From positions 992,001-1,056,000 of the forward strand of contig NZ_UAUI01000001.1 in assembly GCF_900455735.1 (NCBI RefSeq): a DNA stretch of 64,000 nucleotides, in the 5' to 3' direction. This DNA is from Rhodococcus wratislaviensis (lineage in GTDB: Bacteria; Actinomycetota; Actinomycetes; Mycobacteriales; Mycobacteriaceae). Under the pieces are notes generated by a model. The model was not told where the DNA came from. It did no database searches and saw only the letters and a list, made by a program, of their open reading frames with translations. Position 1 is the stretch's first letter, and each line of letters starts with the position of its first letter. A program made the translations under genes and the position numbers. Shown here in pieces: positions 13,386-25,461 of the stretch.

Positions 13386-14237
13386 ATGACACAGCATTCC
13401 CATCACCACGCCCATCACCACGGCGGGCACACCCGGGACCACGAGGCAGCGCTGGCGGATCTACTGGACCTGGACGCAGAGGTCTTCGGCGCCTACCTGG
13501 ACCCGGTGGCCGAGTGGGCCGGGCAGCGGACCCGCACGACCCCGCGCCGGGTCGTCGACGTCGGCGCGGGCACGGGAGTCGGAAGCCTGGCCCTGACTCG
13601 ACGGTTTCCCTCGGCCGAGGTGATCGCGATCGACAGGTCGGAAATGATGCTCGAACGCATCCGTACGGCCGCACACGTGCAAGGCGTCGCCGACCGGTTG
13701 AGCGTCCTGCACGCCGATCTGGATGCCGGCTGGCCCGCAGTCGAGGCGGCGGACGTCGTGTGGGCAGCCTCCTCGTTGCACGAGGTCGCCGACCCGGACC
13801 GAGTACTCCGCGACATGTACGGCGCGCTGAACACCGACGGCGTGCTGGTGGTCGTCGAAATGGACGCGCTGCCGCGTCTCCTGCCGGACGACCTCGGTCT
13901 GGGCCGCCCGGGCCTGGAGTCGCGCTGCCACGAGGCCTTGGCGCGGTTGGACTGGAACTCCCACCCGAACTGGCGGACGCACGTGGAACGGGCCGGTTTC
14001 GTGGACGTCGAGGAGCGCAGTGTCTCCAGCGAGGCAACCCCGGCCCCGCCGAGCACCGGACGCTACGCACAGACTTTCCTGCGCCGCATTCGCTCCGCGC
14101 TCGACGGGCAACTGGCCACCGACGACCGCGACACGCTCGATCGCCTTCTCGCGGTGGACAACCCCGACAGCGTCCTGCACCGCGGGGACCTGACGGTGCG
14201 GGGCAGCCGGACCGTCTGGACGGCCCGGCGTCCCTGA
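13386..14237 (+). CDS. Class I SAM-dependent methyltransferase with His-rich N-terminus
   Basis: A 283-residue methyltransferase. The SAM-binding motif I is VVDVGAGTGVGSLAL (~residues 56-70), followed by an acidic motif II (VIAIDRSEMML) and a post-motif ASSLHEVADPDRVLRDMY. The first 16 residues include nine histidines, an unusual possible metal-binding tail. The substrate is unknown. It is divergent from the XRE-cupin regulator with 47 bp between them. Actinobacterial relatives are often annotated only as class I methyltransferases. Confidence 0.85.
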   Translation: MTQHSHHHAHHHGGHTRDHEAALADLLDLDAEVFGAYLDPVAEWAGQRTRTTPRRVVDVGAGTGVGSLALTRRFPSAEVIAIDRSEMMLERIRTAAHVQGVADRLSVLHADLDAGWPAVEAADVVWAASSLHEVADPDRVLRDMYGALNTDGVLVVVEMDALPRLLPDDLGLGRPGLESRCHEALARLDWNSHPNWRTHVERAGFVDVEERSVSSEATPAPPSTGRYAQTFLRRIRSALDGQLATDDRDTLDRLLAVDNPDSVLHRGDLTVRGSRTVWTARRP

Positions 14238-14263
14238 ACCTGCCGTGACGGAGTGGAACTTCC

Positions 14264-14280
14264 CCACGCCGTCACGGCGT
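14264..14280. terminator. Weak hairpin after the methyltransferase gene
   Basis: ACGCCG-TCA-CGGCGT can form a six-bp GC stem shortly after the methyltransferase stop, without a T-tract. The rest of the 172-bp gap holds only a promoter candidate for the next gene. Confidence 0.25.
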
Positions 14281-14397
14281 TCGGGGACCGGTTCACGTGG
14301 CGGTGGTGAGTGGCGATGGGATCGGGCTACTCGATGGCGCTGGGAGCCGACCACGATTATTCGGTCTATTTTACGGTTCCGTCTCGGACCGACTGAG

Positions 14398-14403
14398 TAC
14401 ACT
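14398..14403 (+). promoter_or_regulatory. Candidate -10 element for the winged-helix gene
   Basis: TACACT ends 6 nt before the GTG at 14410, matching the leaderless layout seen at several other genes here. The stretch upstream (14356-14385) is the most AT-rich part of the gap. Confidence 0.4.
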
Positions 14404-14409
14404 GGCGAC

Positions 14410-15531
14410 GTGCCGAATCAGGAGAACGCCGAATTCGCAGGTAGCGAGCCGAAGGTGCCGTTTCCGAAGCCGGAACGCGACATCGATCTCTACCGCCGGG
14501 CGATCGCCACCCTCCAGGCCGCACTCCCCCACGGCTGGACCTTGACGTCCGGAAAGTCCCGCTCCCTCGCCGACGCGCCGGAACGACTACTGGTCGGCGC
14601 GCCCAACGGCGAGGTGGCGTCCTTCTCCGTCATCCCCGCCCGAGGGGTTCTCGCCGGCGACGCCGCCCGCTTCGCCGACGGACTGTCCGGGTCCGATCGA
14701 GGATTCGTCTGCGCCCGTTACCTTTCCGAACCCGTTCGCCGTCAACTCGACGCCAGGGGTCTCTCCTACGCCGACGCGACCGGCAACACCTCACTTGCCG
14801 CGGACCGGCCCGCGATCTGGGTGCGCGACCGCGGCGCGGACGCCGACCCGTGGCGTGGCCCCGGTCGTCCGGCCGCCCAACTGACCGGCGATCCGGCCGC
14901 CCGGGTCGTGCGTGCCCTCGCCGATCACTCGGGTCAGCTGACGGTCCCCGAACTCGTCCGGCTGTCCGGAGCGTCCACCGGCGCGACGTATCGGGTGGTC
15001 GAAACCCTGGAGGAACGCGATCTGCTCGAGCGACTCCCCCGCGGGCCCATCACCAGCGTCCGGTGGCAGCAGATGCTGCGCGCCTGGAGCAGCGACTCCA
15101 GTTTCAAGGATTGCCCCACCGTCGGCTACTTCGCACCCGAGGGAGTGCAGTCGTTCGTCGCGAAACTCGCGAAGGTCTCCGGCCACCTCTATGCGGTGAC
15201 CGGGTCACTCGCAGCAGCGGCGTTCGTCGAATACGCGCCGGCGCATCAGGTCCAGATCTACGCCGACCACGGCGAGGCGCTGGCAGGCGCGCTCGAGCTA
15301 CGCCCCGTCGATCAGGGCGCCAACGTCCTCGTCGCCACTCCCCGATCGGCTGCGGTCTTCGAGCGCACCCTCTTCCGCGACAACGTCCGCCTGGTCGCCC
15401 CCGCGCAAGCCTTCGCGGATCTACTCGCCGGCACCGGTCGTCATCCGCAGGAGGCGGAGCACCTCCTCGACTGGATGACCGAGAACGCGCCCGAGTGGAG
15501 AACAGCCCTCGGCGCACCGACGGTTACCTGA
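14410..15531 (+). CDS. Winged-helix protein, possibly AbiEi-antitoxin-like regulator
   Basis: A 373-residue soluble protein. The N-terminal third has an alpha/beta appearance (CARYLSEPVRRQLDARGLSYAD), and the centre contains a winged helix (VVRALADHSGQLTVPELVRLSG, then TGATYRVVETLEERDLL). The C-terminal part (GHLYAVTGSLAAAAFVEYAPA) resembles nucleotidyltransferase-linked antitoxin or repressor domains. Actinobacterial proteins of this kind are sometimes labelled type IV AbiEi-family antitoxins. No AbiEii nucleotidyltransferase toxin follows, so the toxin-antitoxin reading is weak. The GTG start fits a leaderless transcript. Confidence 0.5.
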   Translation: MPNQENAEFAGSEPKVPFPKPERDIDLYRRAIATLQAALPHGWTLTSGKSRSLADAPERLLVGAPNGEVASFSVIPARGVLAGDAARFADGLSGSDRGFVCARYLSEPVRRQLDARGLSYADATGNTSLAADRPAIWVRDRGADADPWRGPGRPAAQLTGDPAARVVRALADHSGQLTVPELVRLSGASTGATYRVVETLEERDLLERLPRGPITSVRWQQMLRAWSSDSSFKDCPTVGYFAPEGVQSFVAKLAKVSGHLYAVTGSLAAAAFVEYAPAHQVQIYADHGEALAGALELRPVDQGANVLVATPRSAAVFERTLFRDNVRLVAPAQAFADLLAGTGRHPQEAEHLLDWMTENAPEWRTALGAPTVT

Positions 15532-15712: not shown

Positions 15713-16876
15713 ATGTCCATGGGAGTCGGGCTCAGGATCGGCAGTGTCGTGTCCACCGCGGTGGTGGCGTCGAACGATCCAGGATCCCCGGATCCGGTCG
15801 TCATCGTCCGGGACACCGTCCTCCACATGTGCCCGGACGGCACCGCAATTCTCGGCGGATCGGCGCCGCACACGATCGGCGACACCCACACCGTGTCGGG
15901 GTTCCTTCCCCGCGTCGGCGACCCGGCCGGTGTCGCGGTAGGCGACGGATCGCGGTATCGCGCCGAGGACCTGGTCGCGGGCGCGATGCGGTGCCTGCTC
16001 CGGGAGTGCGAACCTCTCCCCGACCACGGCGGCCGGACGGGCGGCGCCCCCGACATCATGGCCACCTACCCCACCCGCTGGGACTCGGCCGCCGTCGCGG
16101 CGCTGCGCGACGCCCTGGACTACGCCGACATGTCCTACCTGTCCCTCGTCTCGGACGCCGAAGCCGCCGCGGCCTGGTTCGAATCCGAGATCGCGGAGCG
16201 TCCCGGGCAGCTGGTCGGCATCTATCACGTCGACGACACCGGCGCGACCGTCGCGCTGATCCGCTCGGGCGTCGAGGCAGGCAAGGCGTTCCGCTTCTCG
16301 TCGGGGGGTTCCCCCACGGCCCAGATCGCCACCGCGCTCGGTGCATTCGGCTGGCTCCCCGGCAACCTCGATGCCGTGGTCGTGACGGGCGACGGCCTGA
16401 TCGCGAGGGACTCCGCGGCCATTCACGGGTTCGCTACCACGGTCGGTGAGAAGTTCGGTGTGCGGTGTGTCGTCGGCCCGGGCCCCGAGCAGACCGCAGC
16501 GCTCGGTGCCGCCATCCGCGCCGCCGGGTTCAACCCCACCACGCACAGGGTCACCCCGATCGGCCTACCGCCGTCGTACGACGTCACCGAGGTGATCGAT
16601 GCCGTCGTCGGCGAGCCGGTGCCCTCGACCTCCACGGTCGCGAGCCGGCCGGCGACGCGCACGCACAACCCCGCGTCGGCCGCGGCGGTGGGCGCGTCCC
16701 CCGCTCGCGTGTCGGGCGGAACGGCGGTCGCGACACCGCCGGAACCTCGCGCAGTCGCGCAGTCCGGGGACGAATCCACCGCCGACTCGACGTCCCGGGC
16801 GTCCTGGCTCGTCGCCGCAGCGGTCGGGCTGGCTCTCGTGCTGGTGGCGATCGTCTTCGTGCTGTTCATCCTCTGA
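15713..16876 (+). CDS. Tail-anchored Hsp70/actin-like ATPase-domain protein
   Basis: A 387-residue protein. Its first ~290 residues look like an Hsp70/actin-fold ATPase (GVGLRIGSVVSTAVV at the N-terminus, YADMSYLSLVSDAEAAAAWF, and VVVTGDGLIARD near residue 225, then GPEQTAALGAAIRAAG). A low-complexity Pro/Ala/Thr linker follows. The last 24 residues are one membrane helix, so the ATPase domain should be cytoplasmic and tail-anchored. The ATG has an AGGGG ribosome site; another in-frame ATG lies two codons later. It lacks a substrate-binding domain, so it is not an ordinary DnaK. Function is unknown. It is the immediate upstream neighbour of the Jet operon on the same strand. Confidence 0.65.
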   Translation: MSMGVGLRIGSVVSTAVVASNDPGSPDPVVIVRDTVLHMCPDGTAILGGSAPHTIGDTHTVSGFLPRVGDPAGVAVGDGSRYRAEDLVAGAMRCLLRECEPLPDHGGRTGGAPDIMATYPTRWDSAAVAALRDALDYADMSYLSLVSDAEAAAAWFESEIAERPGQLVGIYHVDDTGATVALIRSGVEAGKAFRFSSGGSPTAQIATALGAFGWLPGNLDAVVVTGDGLIARDSAAIHGFATTVGEKFGVRCVVGPGPEQTAALGAAIRAAGFNPTTHRVTPIGLPPSYDVTEVIDAVVGEPVPSTSTVASRPATRTHNPASAAAVGASPARVSGGTAVATPPEPRAVAQSGDESTADSTSRASWLVAAAVGLALVLVAIVFVLFIL

Positions 16877-17087: not shown

Positions 17088-18629
17088 GTGAGTGAATCAG
17101 GCAGCGATCCAGGTCGGTCCCCCTCGGGGCTGCGTGCAGCGCGCCCGGCGGTTCCACCCCCACTCCGGGACGACCGGTTGAAACTGTTCGCGTTCACCAC
17201 TGCCGAGAAGCGCGCGGAGTACCTGTGGGTGCTGCGGGCCTTCGACCATGCCCGCGCCAACTACGTCGTCCTGCTCCACGCCGGCGACGTCGCCCGCATT
17301 CTGAACGGCCTCGCCGGCGACGATCCGGCCGGACAACTCGGCGCCGGAGACATCACTCCCCTACTCGAGCAACTCCACGTCTGGGAGGTGCTCGAACGCA
17401 GCTACGACGGAACACGCGCCGCGACGCTGGCCGAATACCGGAACCGGCACTTCGTCTATCAGTTCAGCCAGGCCGGCTACCAGGTGTTCCGAGCCGTCGA
17501 GGACGCACTGGCGGCCCGGCTCGACGACGCGTCGCTGTCCCGGCTGGCGCTGCCCGACCTCCTCGCCGACATGAACGACCTGGCCGCCGCCAACCGCGCG
17601 GCCGACAACGACCTCGTGTACCGGAAACTCAACCGTCTCGATGCGACGCTGTCGGACATGGCCGGACGCGCCGCCCAGTTCTACCTGACCCTGGGCGATC
17701 TCGTCCGCACCACGGAGATCACCCCCGAGACGTTCATGTCCCACAAGGACGCTCTCCTCACACACATGCGCGAATTCAGCTCCGACCTCTCGCGCTATGC
17801 ACCGAAACTCGCGGCGGCGATCGCGCTCGTGGAAGACACCGGCGTCGAGACGATGGTGACGCGGGCCGCCGCCAGCGACGAGCGAGTGTTCCTCGGCATC
17901 GAAGAGCGCGAAGCCGATTGGCGCGCGCGGTGGGCGGGGCTGACGCATTGGTTCGTCGGGAGCGAGGCGGGTCTCAGCGAGTCGGAGCGCCTGCGCGAGG
18001 GCACGATGAGTGCCATCGCCGCCGTCCTGTCGCTGCTGCGCCGCGTCACCGAGACCCGCAAAGGTGGTGTCAGCAGAGAGAGCCAATTGCGCCACCTCGC
18101 AGGCTGGTTCGCCGCAACTCCGACCGAGGACGCCGCGCATGCGCTGTTCCAGGCCGTGTTCGATCTCGGCCGTCCGCGCCACCTCTCGATGGTGCATCCG
18201 GACGCCGACATCATTCCCGACACACGGTCGTGGTGGGAGGCCCAGCCCGTGGAGATCTCCCGCACGCTGGCCGAGACCGGACGTCCCCCGTCGCCCGGCC
18301 TGCCCGCGCGGGTACAGCGCAACGAGGGCAGCGTGCGCCGCCTGCGGGAGGAACAGCTGACCGCACAACGACTTCGCGCCGCCGCCGCCCAGTCGCTGGC
18401 CCGGGGCGGGGTCTACGAGCGGGAGCTCGACGAGGCCGAAACCGACGTGCTGCTGAGTCTGCTCAACGCCGCGCTGACGGCGCGGGTTCCGGTCAGCGGC
18501 CGCGTGAACAGCAGCACAGGATCGGAGAACGGCGTGAAGCTCACCCTCAGCCCACACAGCGAATCGACGGTGGTGCGCACCGCCCGCGGACGCCTGCACC
18601 TCGACGGACTGCAGGTGAGCGTTCGGTGA
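17088..18629 (+). CDS. jetA: Wadjet type I component JetA (TIGR02677/DUF2397)
   Basis: The 513-residue protein matches the DUF2397 family, the kleisin-like subunit of type I Wadjet/JET systems. These are SMC-related complexes that recognise and cut small circular DNA. Visible family blocks are FAFTTAEKRAEYLWVLRAFD near residue 29, a long helical middle (YRKLNRLDATLSDMAGRAAQF), and HLAGWFAATPTEDAAHALFQ. The C-terminal region is compact and Arg/Glu-rich before a short beta segment. It overlaps jetB by 4 nt, as expected for a coupled complex. Length is normal. Assignment is from memory of the family and gene order with jetB and jetC. Confidence 0.82.
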   Translation: MSESGSDPGRSPSGLRAARPAVPPPLRDDRLKLFAFTTAEKRAEYLWVLRAFDHARANYVVLLHAGDVARILNGLAGDDPAGQLGAGDITPLLEQLHVWEVLERSYDGTRAATLAEYRNRHFVYQFSQAGYQVFRAVEDALAARLDDASLSRLALPDLLADMNDLAAANRAADNDLVYRKLNRLDATLSDMAGRAAQFYLTLGDLVRTTEITPETFMSHKDALLTHMREFSSDLSRYAPKLAAAIALVEDTGVETMVTRAAASDERVFLGIEEREADWRARWAGLTHWFVGSEAGLSESERLREGTMSAIAAVLSLLRRVTETRKGGVSRESQLRHLAGWFAATPTEDAAHALFQAVFDLGRPRHLSMVHPDADIIPDTRSWWEAQPVEISRTLAETGRPPSPGLPARVQRNEGSVRRLREEQLTAQRLRAAAAQSLARGGVYERELDEAETDVLLSLLNAALTARVPVSGRVNSSTGSENGVKLTLSPHSESTVVRTARGRLHLDGLQVSVR

Positions 18630-20020
18630 AGGCACGGGAGATCTCGCCGCTCGCCCTCGATTCGTATCAGCGCGCCGCCCGCGTCATTCTGTCGAATCAC
18701 CTGGTGACACAGACCTATCCGGATCGCATCGCACTCCCCCTGCTCCGCCGGTGGGCCACCGAACTACGCGACGATCTGATGACGCTCTTCGGGTACCGAC
18801 TCGAAGTCACCGAGACGACCGCCCGGCTGTTCACGGTGAGCGACCGGCTCGACGCCGGGACGCCGGCCAAGACGGCCACCGACCGCACGTTCGACCGGTA
18901 CCGCTACGCCTATCTCGCGTTGGCGCTGGCCGCACTCGGCCGCGCCGGAAACCAGATCACCCTGTCCGAACTCGCCGATCACGTGGCCGCCGACGCCGCA
19001 CAGGTCGACGGTGTGGATCTGTCCACGGAACGCGCGTCCGACCGGGACGCGTTCGTCGACGCCGTCGGCTGGCTCGCCGCCCGCGGCGCGATCGCCCTCG
19101 CCGACGGTGACGCGGGCGGCTGGGCCGCCAATCCAGATGCGGGAGAAGCGCTGTACGACATCGACAGGTCCGTCGTCATCGCCCTGTTCCGGCCGCCGCG
19201 CGCACTGCAGCACCTCCGGTCCATCCGCGGACTGCTCGCCGGCGCGGACGCGGTGACCGAGGACGACACCTCGGATTTCGGGACAACCCGGCCGGTCGAC
19301 GTGAAGGAGACCGCGCGGCGGGTCCGGCGTGCTCTCGTCGAACGGCCCGTGGTCTACGCCGCCGACCTGGACGATCACGAGCTGGTCCAACTCGCGCTCC
19401 CCCGCACCGCGGCCGACGTCGAGTTGCTCACCGGACTGGTCGCGGAGCGGCGTGAAGAGGGTGTCGCGATGATCGACTCCTCCGGACGTCTGTCCGACGT
19501 CCGGTTCCCCGGGACGGGAACGGTCGCGCAGGTCGCGCTCCTGCTCGCCGGAGAGATCGCCGATCGCGTACTGGACCCGGACGCCCCGGAGACGGCCCGG
19601 ATGCCGCTGCCGCAGGGCCGGATCGACGACCTGATCGAACAGGTCGACAGCGCCATTCCGCAGTCCGGGATCTTCGACAGCCTCGCCGGCAACGACGGGT
19701 TCGAACCCGCAGACCCCGCCCCCGCGGACCGGCTGTTCCCCCTCGTCGAGGACGAGTGGATCACCGGCACCGTCCGGACACTGACCGAACGGTTCGGGCG
19801 CACATTCGCCGCCGGGTGGCAGGCGGACCCGGACGGTCTGGGACGGGCGGCGCTGGCGCTGCTCGAGCGGCTACGCCTCACCGCGGCCGTGCCGGGTGGT
19901 GTGCTCGCACTCCCGGCACTCGCCCGCTACCGGGGTGTGGTGGTCACGATCCGCGACCGCACACCCGAGATCGACCTGTTCCAGAGCTCAGCGAACGACA
20001 GCGAGGAAGTCACAGCATGA
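18626..20020 (+). CDS. jetB: Wadjet type I component JetB (TIGR02678/DUF2398)
   Basis: The 464-residue protein matches DUF2398, the KITE-like winged-helix subunit of type I Wadjet. It would bind JetA and the neck of JetC. The family segments are ARVILSNHLVTQTYPDRIALPLLRRWA near the N-terminus, RTFDRYRYAYLALALAALGR around residue 90, and LRSIRGLLAG around residue 194. The GTG at 18626 overlaps the jetA stop. Its last codons overlap the jetC ATG, so the three genes form one tightly packed operon. Confidence 0.82.
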   Translation: MKAREISPLALDSYQRAARVILSNHLVTQTYPDRIALPLLRRWATELRDDLMTLFGYRLEVTETTARLFTVSDRLDAGTPAKTATDRTFDRYRYAYLALALAALGRAGNQITLSELADHVAADAAQVDGVDLSTERASDRDAFVDAVGWLAARGAIALADGDAGGWAANPDAGEALYDIDRSVVIALFRPPRALQHLRSIRGLLAGADAVTEDDTSDFGTTRPVDVKETARRVRRALVERPVVYAADLDDHELVQLALPRTAADVELLTGLVAERREEGVAMIDSSGRLSDVRFPGTGTVAQVALLLAGEIADRVLDPDAPETARMPLPQGRIDDLIEQVDSAIPQSGIFDSLAGNDGFEPADPAPADRLFPLVEDEWITGTVRTLTERFGRTFAAGWQADPDGLGRAALALLERLRLTAAVPGGVLALPALARYRGVVVTIRDRTPEIDLFQSSANDSEEVTA

Positions 20021-23000
20021 CGAGTGCGCGTTTCCGGCCCACCCGCGCCGGAATCATCAACCTCTGGGACTACCGCGATCAGGAGTTCTCCTTCGCCGAC
20101 GGTCGCCTCGTTCTCCGCGGTCCCAACGGCTCCGGCAAGACGAAGGCCCTCGAAGTGCTGTTCCCGTTCGTCTTCGACGGCCGGATCGAACCCCGGCGGC
20201 TCAATCCGTTCGCCGGCGAGGAACGCACCATGAAATCGAACCTCCTGTACCGCGGGCAGGAGAGCGCGTACTCGTACGTCTGGATGGAGTTCTGCCGCGG
20301 CGCGAAGGACGACCCCGAGGCCGTCACCGTGGGCATCGGCATGCGCGCCACCCGCACCAACGACAAGGTCACACGCTGGTACTTCGTCGCCGACGGTCGC
20401 GTCGGCGTCGACTTCTCCCTGCTCGGCACCGACGACCGTCCGCTCACGAAGAAGCAACTGGGCGAGCAGATCGGCACCGACTCCATCACCGACCGGCCGC
20501 TCGACTACCGCACCGCCATCGACGCCCGAATGTTCGGGCTCGGCGTCCAGCGGTACGACCAGCTGATCAACCTCATCCTCACACTCCGGCGGCCCCAGCT
20601 CGCGAAGAACCTCGACCCCAAGGGACTGTCGCAGGCACTCACCGACGGTCTCCGACCACTCGACGAGCAACTGGTCCTCGAGGCCGCCCGCTCGTTCAGC
20701 GACATGGAGGAGGTCGGCCGGGCGCTCGAGGGGCTGGCCGCGGCGGACCAGGCGGCGCAAAGCTTCGTCGGCGTGTACGCGAAATACCTTCGCCAGCAGG
20801 CGCGTACGGACGTCGACCACCTCGCGACCCGTCTCGAGGCCGTGCGGTCCGGCATCGCCGCCCTCCACAGGGCGGCCGCCGACCGGGCCCGCAGCCAGGA
20901 GAGCCGGGCGGCCGCCGAGGACCGCTTCACCGCCGCCGAACGCGCACTCGACCAGGCCAATGCAACCCTCGACGCACTGAAGCGGTCGACGGCCTACGAG
21001 GGACGGACGCAGCTCGACGACCTCGCGCAGGCCGTCTCGACGCTCGAGAAATCGACCGAACTGCAGGCCGAGAAGGCACGCAAGGCCAAGGCGACCCTCG
21101 AACAGCGAGCCGAGGAGCACGACAAGGCCGGCGACGCCGTCGCCCGCACCGTCGAGGCGCTCACCCACGCCGAAGACGAACTTCACCTCGCCGCCGAGGA
21201 CGCGGGAATCACCTGGACCGCACTGCCCGAGAATGCGCGGACCGACCAACTGACCGCGGCGCTGCGCGGGCACACCGAGGAACGCGACGGCGACATCCGC
21301 GCGGTCCGGGCAGCGCTCGCCACCGTCGAGAGGGCGGCCACCGAACGGACCAGAGCCGACGAAGCGGCACGCCGCGGCCAGGAGCAGCTCGACACCGCGA
21401 CGGTGGCCGTTCTCGAAGCCGAGACCGCGGTCGAATCGGCCCGCAGCCGCTGCGCCACCGAACTCCGATCCTGGTGGACGGAACAGTCGTCCCTCTACGC
21501 CGAGATCGACGCGCCCGCTTCACTGTTCGAGGCCCTGGACGCCGCCCTCGCCCGGATCGGCGACGACGACGCCGCGACCCTGACGGAGACGCTGACCGAA
21601 CAGACCACGGACGCCGTCGACGCGCTCCGGCTGCGCCGGCAGCAGTACGACCGCGACGCCACCTCCGCCGAGGAGGCGATCGCCGAACACGAATCGGCAC
21701 GCGCCGCCATCGAATCCGAGCACGACGACGCCCCACCACTCTCGGCCGCCCGGCACGACGCCCGCTCCCGGCTGACCGGTGCGCCGCTGTGGCGGCTGGT
21801 CCGATTCGCCGACAGTGTCGACGCCGCCGCGGCGGCGGGAATCGAGGCCGCACTGCAGGCGGCGAACCTCCTCGACGGCTGGGTGACCGTCGACGACGCG
21901 CTCCCCGACGTCGAATCCGAACAATTCCTCGTGGCCCTTCCGGCCGAGGATCGGCCCGGCGGCACGACCCTCGCGGACGTTCTCGAGGTCGAGCAGGACA
22001 CGGGTGTTCCCGACAATCGCGTACGCGGGATCCTCGAATCCATCGCCCTCGAATCCCTCGACCTGTCCGAAGGACCGGTGGGTGTCGCCGAAGACGGCGC
22101 GTACCGGCAGGGAATCCAGCGGGGACGCCACACGAAATCGGACGCCGAGTACATCGGGACCACCGCACGGGCCCGCAGGCGCGCTGCCCGTATCGCCGAA
22201 CTCGACAGCACCCTCGAGGAAACCCGGGCGACGCTCGACGAAGCCCGGGCGTCCGCGGATGCGGCGGCGTCGCTGCTGTCGCGGACCACCGCGGCGGCGC
22301 AGGCCCTGACCCGCACGGGATCGATCCTCACGGCGCTGAAGAAGGTCACCGAATCCGCAGGCGCACTCCGCAGCCGCTCCGACACGGCGACAACGGTCGG
22401 TCGCGAACTCGACCAGGCCATCGCCGACCTGTCCGCGAAGGAGAAGCAGCTCCGAGCCACTGCGTCCACGCACCGGACTCCCCACGTCGCCCGCGAGATC
22501 GACTCGCTCGCCGCGGCCGTCCGGCACTTCGAGAAGCAGGGCGAGATGGTGCAGCGGTGCAGGCGCGAACACGCCAAGGAGGTGGAGCACACCCGCGAGT
22601 CCGAGGACCGACTGCACGAGGCGCGCGGCAGCGCGGAGGAGTTCGCGGAAGAAGCTGCCATCGCCGAAGAGGTTCTCGCGCAACAGATCCAACGCCTCGA
22701 GACGCTGCGCGACACGCTGGGAGCGGGGGCCGAGCAGTTGGACCGGCAGCTCGAGGAGGCGCACACGCGGATCGAGGCGTGCAAGAAGGAGCAGCGCGAC
22801 GCCCGCAAGGCGGACAAGGACGCGGGTGAAGCCATCGGCAAAGCCGAGGGCGCGTACAACACGGCCGTCCAGACGCTCCGGCTGGCGCTCACGGAAACGC
22901 ACGCCGACGCCGCCCGCCTCGCGCCGTATGCCCGGCGCGACCTACTCGAACTCCTCGGCGTCGACGGCGGCCACACCTGGCCGGCGAGCTCCGCGGCGTG

Positions 23001-24174
23001 GATGAGTGCCGAACAGCTGGTGTATCGCATCCAGAACACCGAAGACGACACCCCGATCCTGCCGCCCGAAGTGGACGCGCTGTTCCGCGCACTGGACGGC
23101 GCCACCGAATCGGTGCGGGTCAGCGACTCGGCGCGCAAGTCGACGCGCACCGCGCTCACCACCGCGCTGCAGGACTTCGACGCACAGTTGGCGGCCGCCG
23201 GCCAGGACTACCGGTTGCAGTGGGACGCCCCGGACGGCGTGACCGTGGTGCAGGTGCAGGACGACGAGGGGTACTCGTCGATCGGCGAGTTCGCCGCCCG
23301 CATCGCGTCCGCGCGCTCCGATCAGGAATTGCTGCTCACCGAATCCGAGCGTCGCATCCTGGAGGACGCGCTGCTCACGGGTCTCGCACAGCAGATCCAC
23401 GAACGGACCGTCGACGCCCGCGAACTCATCGCCCGGATGGGCACCGAGATGCGGGAGCGCCGGATGTCGTCCGGCAACACCATCGGCGTCCACTGGGTGC
23501 TCGCCGACAACCTCGACGACAGCGCGAAGGCGATCTCCAAACTGCTCGAGCGCGACACCTCGGCGCTGGGGCCGGACGAGCTCGCCACGATGCGCGCCCA
23601 CTTCGCTCACCAGATCAGGACTGCCCGCGCCGCCCATCCGGAGCGTTCGTACCCGGAGATCCTGGCGTCCGCCCTCGACTACCGGCGGTGGCGGGTGTTC
23701 TCGTTCACCCTCATCAGCGGCACCGGCAACGAAGACCGGCTGACCGTCGCCCGGCACAGCGCCCTCTCCGGCGGCGAGCAGTCCGTCTCGCTGCACCTGC
23801 CGTTGTTCGCCGCAGCGCACGTCATGCTCGATTCGGCCGACCCCCATGCACCGCGACTGCTGGCGCTGGACGAGGCGTTCGCCGGCGTCGACGACAACGG
23901 CCGGGCCGAACTGCTCGGCCTCAGCGTGCAATTCGACCTCGACCTGTTCATGACCGGGTTCGACCTGTGGATCACGTACGGCGGCGTGCCGGGGTGCGCG
24001 CACTACGATCTGGCGCACTCGACGGCCGAGCAGAGCGTCAGCGCCACGCTGCTCGTGTGGTCGGATGGCGAACTACTCGCCGAACACGACGGCACCGACC
24101 TGGCGCAGGCGCTCGGTTCGCCCCTCCGCAGGCGGGTCCCGAGGCCCGCGGAGGGTGCTCTCGAGTTCGCCTGA
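20017..24174 (+). CDS. jetC: Wadjet type I SMC-like ATPase JetC (TIGR02680)
   Basis: The 1385-residue SMC/MukB-like motor of the Jet complex. Walker A is GPNGSGKT at residues 35-42, the ABC signature LSGGEQ at about 1250-1255, and Walker B LLALDEAF with D1285 and E1286. All are intact, so ATP hydrolysis should be retained. Two long stretches rich in Ala, Glu, Arg and Asp (about 260-600 and 730-980) form the coiled-coil arms. The part between them (around SRLTGAPLWRLVRFADSVDA) is the hinge-like region. In known systems the Toprim nuclease gene jetD lies in the same cluster. Here the stop is followed at once by a hairpin and convergent mshC, so jetD is absent. Truncation of jetC itself is not evident. 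Confidence 0.88.
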   Translation: MTSARFRPTRAGIINLWDYRDQEFSFADGRLVLRGPNGSGKTKALEVLFPFVFDGRIEPRRLNPFAGEERTMKSNLLYRGQESAYSYVWMEFCRGAKDDPEAVTVGIGMRATRTNDKVTRWYFVADGRVGVDFSLLGTDDRPLTKKQLGEQIGTDSITDRPLDYRTAIDARMFGLGVQRYDQLINLILTLRRPQLAKNLDPKGLSQALTDGLRPLDEQLVLEAARSFSDMEEVGRALEGLAAADQAAQSFVGVYAKYLRQQARTDVDHLATRLEAVRSGIAALHRAAADRARSQESRAAAEDRFTAAERALDQANATLDALKRSTAYEGRTQLDDLAQAVSTLEKSTELQAEKARKAKATLEQRAEEHDKAGDAVARTVEALTHAEDELHLAAEDAGITWTALPENARTDQLTAALRGHTEERDGDIRAVRAALATVERAATERTRADEAARRGQEQLDTATVAVLEAETAVESARSRCATELRSWWTEQSSLYAEIDAPASLFEALDAALARIGDDDAATLTETLTEQTTDAVDALRLRRQQYDRDATSAEEAIAEHESARAAIESEHDDAPPLSAARHDARSRLTGAPLWRLVRFADSVDAAAAAGIEAALQAANLLDGWVTVDDALPDVESEQFLVALPAEDRPGGTTLADVLEVEQDTGVPDNRVRGILESIALESLDLSEGPVGVAEDGAYRQGIQRGRHTKSDAEYIGTTARARRRAARIAELDSTLEETRATLDEARASADAAASLLSRTTAAAQALTRTGSILTALKKVTESAGALRSRSDTATTVGRELDQAIADLSAKEKQLRATASTHRTPHVAREIDSLAAAVRHFEKQGEMVQRCRREHAKEVEHTRESEDRLHEARGSAEEFAEEAAIAEEVLAQQIQRLETLRDTLGAGAEQLDRQLEEAHTRIEACKKEQRDARKADKDAGEAIGKAEGAYNTAVQTLRLALTETHADAARLAPYARRDLLELLGVDGGHTWPASSAAWMSAEQLVYRIQNTEDDTPILPPEVDALFRALDGATESVRVSDSARKSTRTALTTALQDFDAQLAAAGQDYRLQWDAPDGVTVVQVQDDEGYSSIGEFAARIASARSDQELLLTESERRILEDALLTGLAQQIHERTVDARELIARMGTEMRERRMSSGNTIGVHWVLADNLDDSAKAISKLLERDTSALGPDELATMRAHFAHQIRTARAAHPERSYPEILASALDYRRWRVFSFTLISGTGNEDRLTVARHSALSGGEQSVSLHLPLFAAAHVMLDSADPHAPRLLALDEAFAGVDDNGRAELLGLSVQFDLDLFMTGFDLWITYGGVPGCAHYDLAHSTAEQSVSATLLVWSDGELLAEHDGTDLAQALGSPLRRRVPRPAEGALEFA

Positions 24175-24220
24175 CCCGTGAGTACTTGTTAACCGCGGGC
24201 GGTTAACAAGTACTCACGGG
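24175..24220. terminator. Perfect 22-bp inverted repeat between jetC and mshC
   Basis: Bases 24175-24196 and 24199-24220 are exact reverse complements with a 2-bp spacer. The arms begin CCCGTGAGTACTTG. The element starts directly after the jetC stop and includes the mshC stop codon (24214-24216), so it can serve as a bidirectional terminator for the convergent pair. It lacks T-tracts on either side. The outer GTGAGT/ACTCAC stem recurs in the hairpin after glcB. Confidence 0.7.
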
Positions 24221-25461
24221 CGCCGAAGGCGCACACCGAGGAGGGCGTCCACGGCGGCAGCGAATTCGCTCGGCGCGTTCGTGTCCGAGCCGCCGTTGTC
24301 GAGGGCGCGACGGGCCCAGCCGTCGAGGGCGTCGAGCGCCTTCGGGGTGTCGAGATCGTCCGCGAGATGCTGGCGCAGCCGGGAGATCGTGTCGGTCGCC
24401 GACTGCGCGGATTCGAGTGCCGCGGCGTCCTTCCACAGTGTCAGCCGGGTGTGGGCGTCGGCGAGAACCTGCTCGGTCCACGGACGGTCCTGCCGGTAGT
24501 GCCCGGACAGCAGTCCGAGGCGGATGGCGGCCGGGTCGACACCCTCGCCGCGCAGCTTCGACACGAACACGAGGTTGCCGCGGCTCTTCGACATCTTCTC
24601 GCCGTCGAGACCGATCATGCCGGTGTGCACGTAGTGGCGGGCGAAGCGACGGTCGCCCGTGGCCGACTCGGCGTGCGCCGCGGAGTACTCGTGGTGCGGG
24701 AAGATCAGGTCGCTGCCGCCGCCCTGCACGTCGAAACCCGAACCGATGCGGTTGAGGGCGATGGCCGAACACTCGATGTGCCAGCCGGGACGCCCGGGGC
24801 CGAACGGCGACGGCCAGGACGGCTCGCCCGGGCGGACCGCACGCCACACCAGGGCGTCGAGGGGATCCTCCTTGCCGGGGCGGTCGGGGTCGCCGCCGCG
24901 TTCGGCGAAGAACTTGTCCATCGTCTCGCGGTCGTAGCCGGACTCGTACCCGAACTGCTCCGTCGCGTTGGCGCGGAAGTACACGTCGGGGAATTCGGGG
25001 TCGTCGACGACGTAGGCGGCGCCGGACGCGACGAACTTCTCGACCATCTCGATCACTTCGCCGATCGACTCCACCGCGCCGATGTAGTCGCGCGGGGGCA
25101 GCACCCGGAGGGCTTCCATGTCTTCGCGGAACAGCGCCGTCTCGCGCATGCCGAGGACCACCCAGTCCTCCCCGTCGCGGTTGGCGCGCTCGAACAGCGG
25201 GTCGTCGACGTCGGTGACGTTCTGGACGTAGTGCACGTCGTGGCCGGCGTCACGCCAGATCCGGTTCACCAGATCGAACGTCAGATACGTGGCCGCGTGA
25301 CCGAGGTGGGTGGCGTCGTAGGGGGTGATACCGCACACGTACATCGTGGCCGTGCGCCCGGGAGTGACGGGACGTACCTGCCGGTCAGCGGTGTCGAACA
25401 ACCGCAGCGGAGGCCCCTGGCCTGGAACGGACGGGACAGCGGTTTCGGACCAAGACTGCAT
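24214..25461 (-). CDS. mshC: Cysteine:GlcN-Ins ligase MshC (mycothiol biosynthesis)
   Basis: The 415-residue enzyme joins cysteine to 1D-myo-inosityl 2-amino-2-deoxy-glucopyranoside with ATP, the third committed step of mycothiol synthesis. It is a cysteinyl-tRNA synthetase paralogue lacking the tRNA-binding C-terminus. Motifs are [17 protein letters not shown] (zinc cysteine and HIGH-like), the zinc region [10 protein letters not shown], and the KMSKS loop [10 protein letters not shown]. The ATG is 7 nt from a TAGGCT -10-like box. Its stop lies inside the hairpin shared with jetC. The order from here to uppP matches my memory of M. tuberculosis Rv2130c-Rv2136c. Confidence 0.95.

Follow-up and report, generated by a model that had tools for sequence, protein, structure and literature searches.

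A type II Wadjet JetABC operon without the JetD nuclease gene in Rhodococcus wratislaviensis and many of its relatives

In described Wadjet systems, JetABC is both a motor and a sensor of DNA shape and size, and JetD cleaves the DNA on the stalled complex; for one type II complex, from Neobacillus, cleavage of naked circular DNA is reported (PMC10586767, PMC12647877, PMC12287153). The MksBEF complex of Pseudomonas aeruginosa takes part in chromosome maintenance beside SMC (structural maintenance of chromosomes), and neither MksG nor a nuclease is named in the main text of the paper that describes it (PMC7485682). In Corynebacterium glutamicum, the nuclease of the MksBEFG complex binds the kleisin subunit (PMC10123090). 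The PADLOC definition of Wadjet demands all four genes (PMC9252829), and a phylum survey reports Wadjet as widespread in Rhodococcus, with 73% of 97 genomes encoding Wadjet, restriction-modification (RM) and either Eleos or PD-T4-3 (PMC10482375). A 2026 genome paper on R. erythropolis lists a three-protein Wadjet_II, and the word "JetD" appears nowhere in its main text (PMC12915292). In open PubMed Central papers we found no description of a Wadjet system lacking JetD, nothing relevant on Rhodococcus jetABC or SMC in a transposon or essential-gene context, and nothing relevant on the structures 9QE0/9QE1. Here we analyse a jetABC operon of Rhodococcus wratislaviensis that lies, with no jetD beside it, in a stretch of 64,000 nucleotides (contig NZ_UAUI01000001.1, positions 992,001 to 1,056,000; hereafter the window, whose numbering is used throughout), together with the corresponding loci of its relatives.

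Operon type and the search for a nuclease gene

The open reading frames (ORFs) of jetA, jetB and jetC are intact, lie on the + strand with an overlap of 4 bases between consecutive genes, and together span 17088-24174 (Table 1). The Walker A, signature and Walker B motifs of the window's JetC are all intact, and the preliminary description of three coupled, intact genes with their ATPase motifs was confirmed at exactly this place. JetA matched PDLC00536 (PADLOC JetA2, E 4.7e-186), TIGR02677 (234.6 bits, cut-off 165.85) and PF09660 (E 1.2e-141), and JetC matched PDLC00553 (PADLOC JetC2, E 0) and TIGR02680 (735.6 bits, cut-off 462.85). JetB matched PDLC00545 (PADLOC JetB2, E 1.3e-220), TIGR02678 (135.9 bits, cut-off 124.65) and PF09661 (E 2.2e-67), with the PADLOC model covering residues 1-460 and TIGR02678 residues 17-317 only. 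Because the PADLOC JetA2, JetB2 and JetC2 models and the TIGR02677, TIGR02678 and TIGR02680 families were all matched over their cut-offs, the operon is a type II Wadjet operon (DUF2397, DUF2398, TIGR02680). We take the type II JetA family to be the kleisin-like subunit, and the JetB family is presumably the KITE-like one. Type I Wadjet consists of the families DUF3375, DUF4194 and COG4913; in the PADLOC scan (E <= 0.001) JetA and JetB matched type II models only, and the best JetC1 match reached 34 bits against 1435 for JetC2, so that the type I label given earlier to this operon was wrong. All three type II subunits are thus present with intact ATPase motifs, and no JetD2 nuclease is found in or near the operon.

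The source genome (7.78 Mb in 29 contigs, 99.99% complete) gave no match at E <= 10 to TIGR02679 or PF09664, the type II JetD families, none at E <= 10 to a profile that we built from nine JetDs of the window's lineage, and none at E <= 0.001 to PF09983, the type I C-terminal family. In the control for PF09983, Corynebacterium glutamicum matched over the cut-off. Since a type II JetD over the cut-off was absent from all 14 control genomes, the working positive control for PF09664 was provided by two relatives, G015 (E 1e-37) and G025 (E 2e-35), that were found by the same search. With all four of these searches negative, a JetD elsewhere in the genome was rejected, and the earlier suggestion of such a gene found no support in the genus (PF09664 and lineage profile searches). 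An artefact of a contig end at the window locus was also rejected, the contig being 1.39 Mb long. The same genome holds a canonical SMC (one TIGR02168 match over the cut-off, 1009 bits), with which the JetABC operon coexists.

The stops of jetC (24174) and of the convergent gene mshC (24214) are separated by 39 bp, as had been described, and this interval lies inside a perfect inverted repeat (Table 1). Hairpins with arms of 18-24 bp follow jetC in the window and in 12 of the 25 other genus loci, their letters differing between species and their complementarity kept; no such hairpin was present in the tested stretch of the other 13 (two of which were tested after jetD). Changed letters in arms that nevertheless remain complementary are as expected of a working convergent terminator, and the inverted repeat is probably a terminator shared by the two genes, suggesting that, where it is present, jetC is meant to be the last gene of the transcript.

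Distribution and history of jetD

JetA was matched in 26 of the 28 genomes of our Rhodococcus genus sample and JetD in 2 of them, which leaves 24 of the 26 JetA-bearing genomes without JetD; the genomes lacking a JetA match are G007, which is complete, and G020, which is 75% complete. The lineage JetD profile returned the same two positive and 26 negative genomes, with two extra matches (E 0.096 and 0.4) that are at chance level and were not counted. Among 201 genomes of the family, JetA was matched in 85 (84 over the cut-off) and PF09664 in 22, 19 of them strongly (E < 1e-17), and all 19 are among the 84 JetA genomes; twelve of these strong JetDs belong to the window's lineage and seven to a distant type II copy. 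Three weak PF09664 matches (G203, over the cut-off; G167 and G186, under it; E 5e-5 to 7e-4) come from genomes outside the JetA list and were excluded, and eight JetA regions of the family (G132:C5, G191:C197, G053:C155, G120:C31, G120:C47, G173:C92, G092:C1 near 1.546 Mb, and G123) were left out as distant copies, fragments and one weak match. In the phylum sample outside the family, 26 of 346 genomes had JetA over the cut-off and 21 of these 26 also had JetD somewhere in the genome; the others are G386, G402, G454, G529 and G538, three of which show partial JetA only. The three samples are phylogenetically clustered, and no p-value is given for these counts.

Among the best 80 of 264 named relatives, JetD stands at the locus in 22 and is missing from it in 58, 50 of which hold at least 1.3 kb beyond jetC. 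In this set, loci without JetD include those of R. opacus, R. koreensis, R. jostii, R. erythropolis and R. ruber NBRC 15591, and also those of Prescottella, Nocardia, Antrihabitans and part of Rhodococcoides, and loci with JetD include those of R. fascians strains, R. yunnanensis, R. tibetensis and strain SMB37. A nuclease-free Jet system kept in a housekeeping region, as the preliminary description had proposed for the window, is therefore supported, and over a wider range than was thought, namely Rhodococcus and the four other groups just named.

The window's lineage comprises 88 loci, the window included. jetD is present in 12 of them, each time directly after jetC (with a gap of 0-25 bp or a short overlap), and it precedes mshC in all 10 JetD-bearing loci that have mshC in reach. 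A loss of jetD between jetC and mshC, which had been raised as a question of synteny, is supported by this comparison, as relatives still carry jetD exactly in that slot. No remnant of jetD was detected by tblastn (E < 0.01) at any of the 76 lineage loci without JetD, and a hidden or decayed jetD at the locus was rejected on this basis. In two strains deposited as R. kyotonense, the DNA aligns on both sides of the slot (83-85% identity), which holds about 1.2 kb with jetD in one and about 50 bp in the other.

Trees of JetC and of concatenated JetABC were obtained by quick searches, with several open forks and with long rows flagged; the JetC tree left out L039, L067, L121, L122 and 16 of the 18 distant loci, and the JetABC tree left out L039, L067, L083, L096, L121, L122 and all 18 distant loci. 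The outgroup consisted of two Streptomyces loci (a third Streptomyces region, without annotation, was left out), both of them full JetABCD systems that lie among transposases on linear plasmids, with JetA 56-57% identical and with JetD fourth, overlapping jetC. JetD-bearing rows are scattered over both trees, and the row of G010, which lacks JetD, is nested between two JetD-bearing rows on each of them. Under parsimony, the JetC tree required at least 6 changes in JetD state and the JetABC tree, rooted with Streptomyces, at least 7; at least 4 were needed on a tree of five neighbour proteins, built from those 44 lineage rows in which mshC and two more neighbours are present. A single ancestral JetD would need 17 losses on the JetABC tree, in which clades of 8, 10 and 18 rows are wholly without JetD.

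As jetD stands directly after jetC wherever it is present, repeated loss of jetD within the lineage appears the most likely history. The opposite course, in which the lineage was ancestrally without JetD and a few species gained jetD beside jetC, would be compatible with any function of the complex; it is favoured by the few changes that parsimony needs and by a conflict between the JetD and JetC trees, but we consider it rather improbable, given that jetD occupies one slot with such tight spacing in all 12 loci, that the two outgroup loci are full JetABCD systems with the same kind of overlap, and that the 12 lineage JetDs form a group separate from two distant type II JetDs. The conflict concerns one deep grouping with modest support, JetD rejecting g6+g16 (approximately unbiased test, p-AU 0.017) and JetC rejecting g6+g1 (p-AU 0.029); strict congruence of the two trees was tested and was not obtained, and therefore some transfer of jetD may have occurred, long-branch error being another possible cause. 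Whichever way the history of jetD ran, the JetD-less clades are old and under selection.

Several distant copies were encountered in these surveys. The Nocardia genomes G090, G142, G153, G163 and G181 each carry one lineage copy without JetD and one distant copy with JetD, and in the distant Nocardia copies L057, L069 and L080 JetD precedes jetA. In genus g27, loci L127-L132 hold a second, distant JetABC (25-34% identity) without JetD, and gene families downstream of it, one of them thiolase-like by eye, are common to 6 of 6 loci; in four of the five JetC sequences inspected, ISQGE and LVLLDDAF replace LSGGE and LLALDEAF. It is possible that this is a second nuclease-free type II line. Loci L055, L056, L058 and L060 of genus g14 hold another distant type II JetABC, and no PF09664 JetD was found in those four genomes.

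Selection on jetABC and inheritance with its neighbours

Full-length jetA, jetB and jetC (by length thresholds) are present in 70 of the 76 lineage loci without JetD; four others are cut by contig ends and two are broken, one of these in a genome of 79% completeness. Two jetA genes were flagged as disrupted by a script, and re-reading showed that both are open. Ratios of nonsynonymous to synonymous substitution rates (dN/dS) were determined for pairs that were hand-picked among close relatives, some of them sharing members. They ranged over 0.005-0.109 (jetA), 0.009-0.106 (jetB) and 0.025-0.139 (jetC) in 18 pairs without JetD, and over 0.030-0.063, 0.106-0.221 and 0.055-0.078, respectively, in 4 pairs with JetD; for mshC the range was 0.006-0.084. 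At the level of these chosen pairs, the ratios show that jetA, jetB and jetC are under strong purifying selection where JetD is missing. All 84 lineage rows have the same Walker A (two outgroup rows differ), the signature reads LSGGE in 82 of 84 (two rows are gapped), and Walker B reads LLALDEAF in 62 and LLGLDEAF in 20 of the 84, with two gaps; in two lineage rows, L050 and L094, the contig ends ahead of the signature region. At about 9631 in L039 (genome G004), the frame of jetC changes near codon 600, which is either real or an assembly error. JetC is 1421-1527 amino acids long in the Nocardia-group loci L075, L091, L095, L102, L106 and L120, against 1385 in the window, and L081 has 1385.

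Neighbouring genes were clustered over about 5 kb upstream and up to 8 kb downstream with a simple gene finder of our own, which yielded the mshC block and lineage-specific genes. mshC lies downstream within the fetched stretch in 59 of the 88 lineage loci, and the Nocardia loci share upstream gene families with other genera. When the JetABC tree was compared with the neighbour tree of the same 44 rows, 30 of 41 splits were common, and one of the 28 well-supported Jet splits (the one uniting L051, L053 and L068) conflicted with a well-supported neighbour split. Because the neighbours are linked to the operon, this agreement of trees shows that the region was inherited as one block; it is no test against an independent species tree.

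No gene family beside jetABC was common to all loci without JetD in this clustering, the inserts after jetC varied between groups, and a shared adjacent replacement for JetD was therefore rejected. A family with a winged-helix domain lies upstream in 30 loci of two genera, and two loci of a third genus carry a piece homologous to it at their far edge. As a general substitute for JetD this gene was rejected, because both JetD-bearing genus loci carry it, and it clusters at the loci of only two genera. The ORF that follows it in the window (Table 1), whose family occurs in 16 loci, 2 of them with JetD, gave no PADLOC, NCBIfam or Pfam match at E 0.001. A further ORF at 13386-14237, methyltransferase-like by eye and with a His-rich start, adjoins the conserved upstream block and is seen in relatives of the opacus group.

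Table 1. Coordinates of the jetABC operon, its motifs and its neighbours in the window
Feature	Position	Strand	Basis
jetA, type II (DUF2397/TIGR02677), 513 amino acids, GTG start	17088..18629	+	PDLC00536, TIGR02677, PF09660
jetB, type II (DUF2398/TIGR02678), 464 amino acids, GTG start overlapping jetA stop by 4 bases	18626..20020	+	PDLC00545, TIGR02678, PF09661
jetC, type II (TIGR02680), SMC/MukB-like ATPase, 1385 amino acids, ATG start overlapping jetB stop	20017..24174	+	PDLC00553, TIGR02680
JetC Walker A GPNGSGKT, residues 35-42	20119..20142	+	alignment of lineage JetC rows
JetC ATP-binding cassette (ABC) signature LSGGE, residues 1250-1254	23764..23778	+	alignment of lineage JetC rows
JetC Walker B LLALDEAF, residues 1281-1288	23857..23880	+	alignment of lineage JetC rows
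Perfect 22-bp inverted repeat, 2-nt loop, directly after jetC stop, overlapping mshC end	24175..24220	.	sequence
mshC (mycothiol ligase), convergent neighbour and synteny anchor, outside the system	24214..25461	-	TIGR03447, E 2.8e-225
Conserved upstream neighbour, winged-helix domain (PF09339), not specific to loci without JetD	14245..15531	+	Pfam match
Conserved upstream neighbour, not specific to loci without JetD	15713..16876	+	family in 16 loci, 2 with JetD

Possible function and comparison with known systems

The reading that we favour, with a probability of roughly 0.47, is that the type II Wadjet motor JetABC lost its nuclease and was kept for a task without DNA cutting, which by analogy would be the role of an accessory condensin. 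JetABC would load on DNA and extrude loops by ATP hydrolysis, like the JetABC of JetD-bearing systems; without a JetD to recruit, the stalled complex would be released rather than trigger cleavage, and it would act on the chromosome as an accessory condensin beside the canonical SMC, like MksBEF of P. aeruginosa. Loop extrusion without cutting is the biochemistry to be expected by analogy when JetD is absent, and from the retention of the window's complex without a nuclease we infer a chromosome-organising role. The presence of JetA in 26 of 28 genus genomes, in contrast to the situation outside the family, where 21 of 26 JetA genomes have JetD, is consistent with this reading, and we take an accessory condensin to be most likely because the analogies with MksBEF and MksBEFG bracket the likely role.

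Several observations weigh against an accessory condensin. MksBEFG of C. glutamicum, which has its nuclease, acts on plasmids only and has no role on the chromosome (PMC7083940). The complete genome G007 has no JetA match, so that at least one species can do without the complex. The highest ratios in the pairs without JetD (jetA 0.109, jetC 0.139) come from one Nocardia pair, and in seven relative-rate comparisons, which are non-independent, the branch without JetD was the faster one for JetB in four (p 0.004, 0.046, 0.014 and 0.009) and for JetA in one (p 0.023), and the JetD-bearing branch was the faster one for JetC in one; some relaxation on branches without JetD is possible. Synteny with mshC was unseen in 29 of the 88 loci, including all 9 of Nocardia and 12 of the 13 of genus g27, partly as a result of contig ends. 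The evidence fits a chromosomal and a plasmid substrate alike, the case for a condensin role being made by comparing sequences.

It is conceivable, though doubtful, that JetABC still polices plasmids by compaction or silencing, extruding and holding circular DNA and thereby lowering its transcription, copy number or stability. Plasmid restriction is the role that has been described for the family, JetABC is held to confer the sensing of shape and size (PMC10586767), and the absence of JetA from the complete genome G007 is what an accessory defence might show; the core-gene pattern (26 of 28 genus genomes, inherited with neighbours) argues against such policing, as does the finding that 8 of the 10 genus genomes without JetD in at most 6 contigs have more than one contig, perhaps plasmids, the contigs being untyped. 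A nuclease with no sequence relationship to JetD, encoded at some other place, would be an unlikely partner acting in trans. In its favour, any function of JetABC without a partner is presumptive, and in the five Nocardia genomes with a distant JetABCD copy the JetD of that copy could serve both; the genus, however, has no JetD-family gene outside two species, and the search beside jetABC, which covered adjacent genes only, gave no family shared by all loci without JetD. That JetABC is a remnant which has not yet decayed is very improbable: JetD is missing, JetB evolves faster on some branches, and 2 of the 76 loci are broken (one in the incomplete genome mentioned above), but all 18 pairs without JetD have a dN/dS far below 1, 70 of 76 loci are full length, Walker A is invariant, and whole clades of 8, 10 and 18 rows lack JetD.

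Returning to the accessory condensin, a broader claim would cover it and a non-cutting episome silencer together, as a new housekeeping SMC class that arose from type II Wadjet repeatedly stripped of its nuclease in Rhodococcus, Prescottella, Nocardia and Antrihabitans; we regard its chances as evenly balanced. A plasmid-defence SMC motor appears to have been separated from its nuclease in nature many times, with the motor still under selection, so that gene deletion in non-pathogenic Rhodococcus gives direct access to the questions whether JetABC has a use without cutting and how immune SMC complexes and condensins are converted into each other. If the claim is true, the conversion of an SMC complex from an immune weapon into a chromosome machine would be documented in many parallel steps, and many of the operons that pass for Wadjet defence in these genera would be something other than cutting systems. 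Given that 24 of the 26 JetA-bearing genus genomes lack JetD, plasmid restriction by such operons should not be taken for granted. The preliminary description thus stands in its nuclease-free Jet complex within a housekeeping region and in its jetD slot between jetC and mshC, and falls in its type I label; a JetD elsewhere in the genome, one of the options that it named, is unsupported in the genus.

The closest described relatives are the type II Wadjet JetABCD systems, such as nvJET of Neobacillus vireti and the Streptomyces linear-plasmid loci, which share with the window the JetA, JetB and JetC families, the gene order, the ATPase motifs and the coupled operon; in PDB 9qe0/9qe1, the chains named JetA and JetC are homologous to the window's proteins. 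The window differs from these systems in that operon and genome are without JetD and a hairpin follows jetC, and from the two Streptomyces loci, with their transposase-rich plasmid setting, in the conserved gene order of its neighbourhood. P. aeruginosa MksBEF resembles the window's complex as a three-subunit, MukB-like SMC complex beside the canonical SMC; it belongs to another branch, with type I-like families, and its function was tested by experiment, whereas the window's complex is known from sequence alone. C. glutamicum MksBEFG is likewise an additional SMC-like operon in a related actinobacterium, of type I-like and thus other families, and differs in that the MksG nuclease is present (PF09983 matches) and that it acts on plasmids. 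The parts of the window's system are known, and a nuclease-free type II complex kept by selection is new within the open literature searched.

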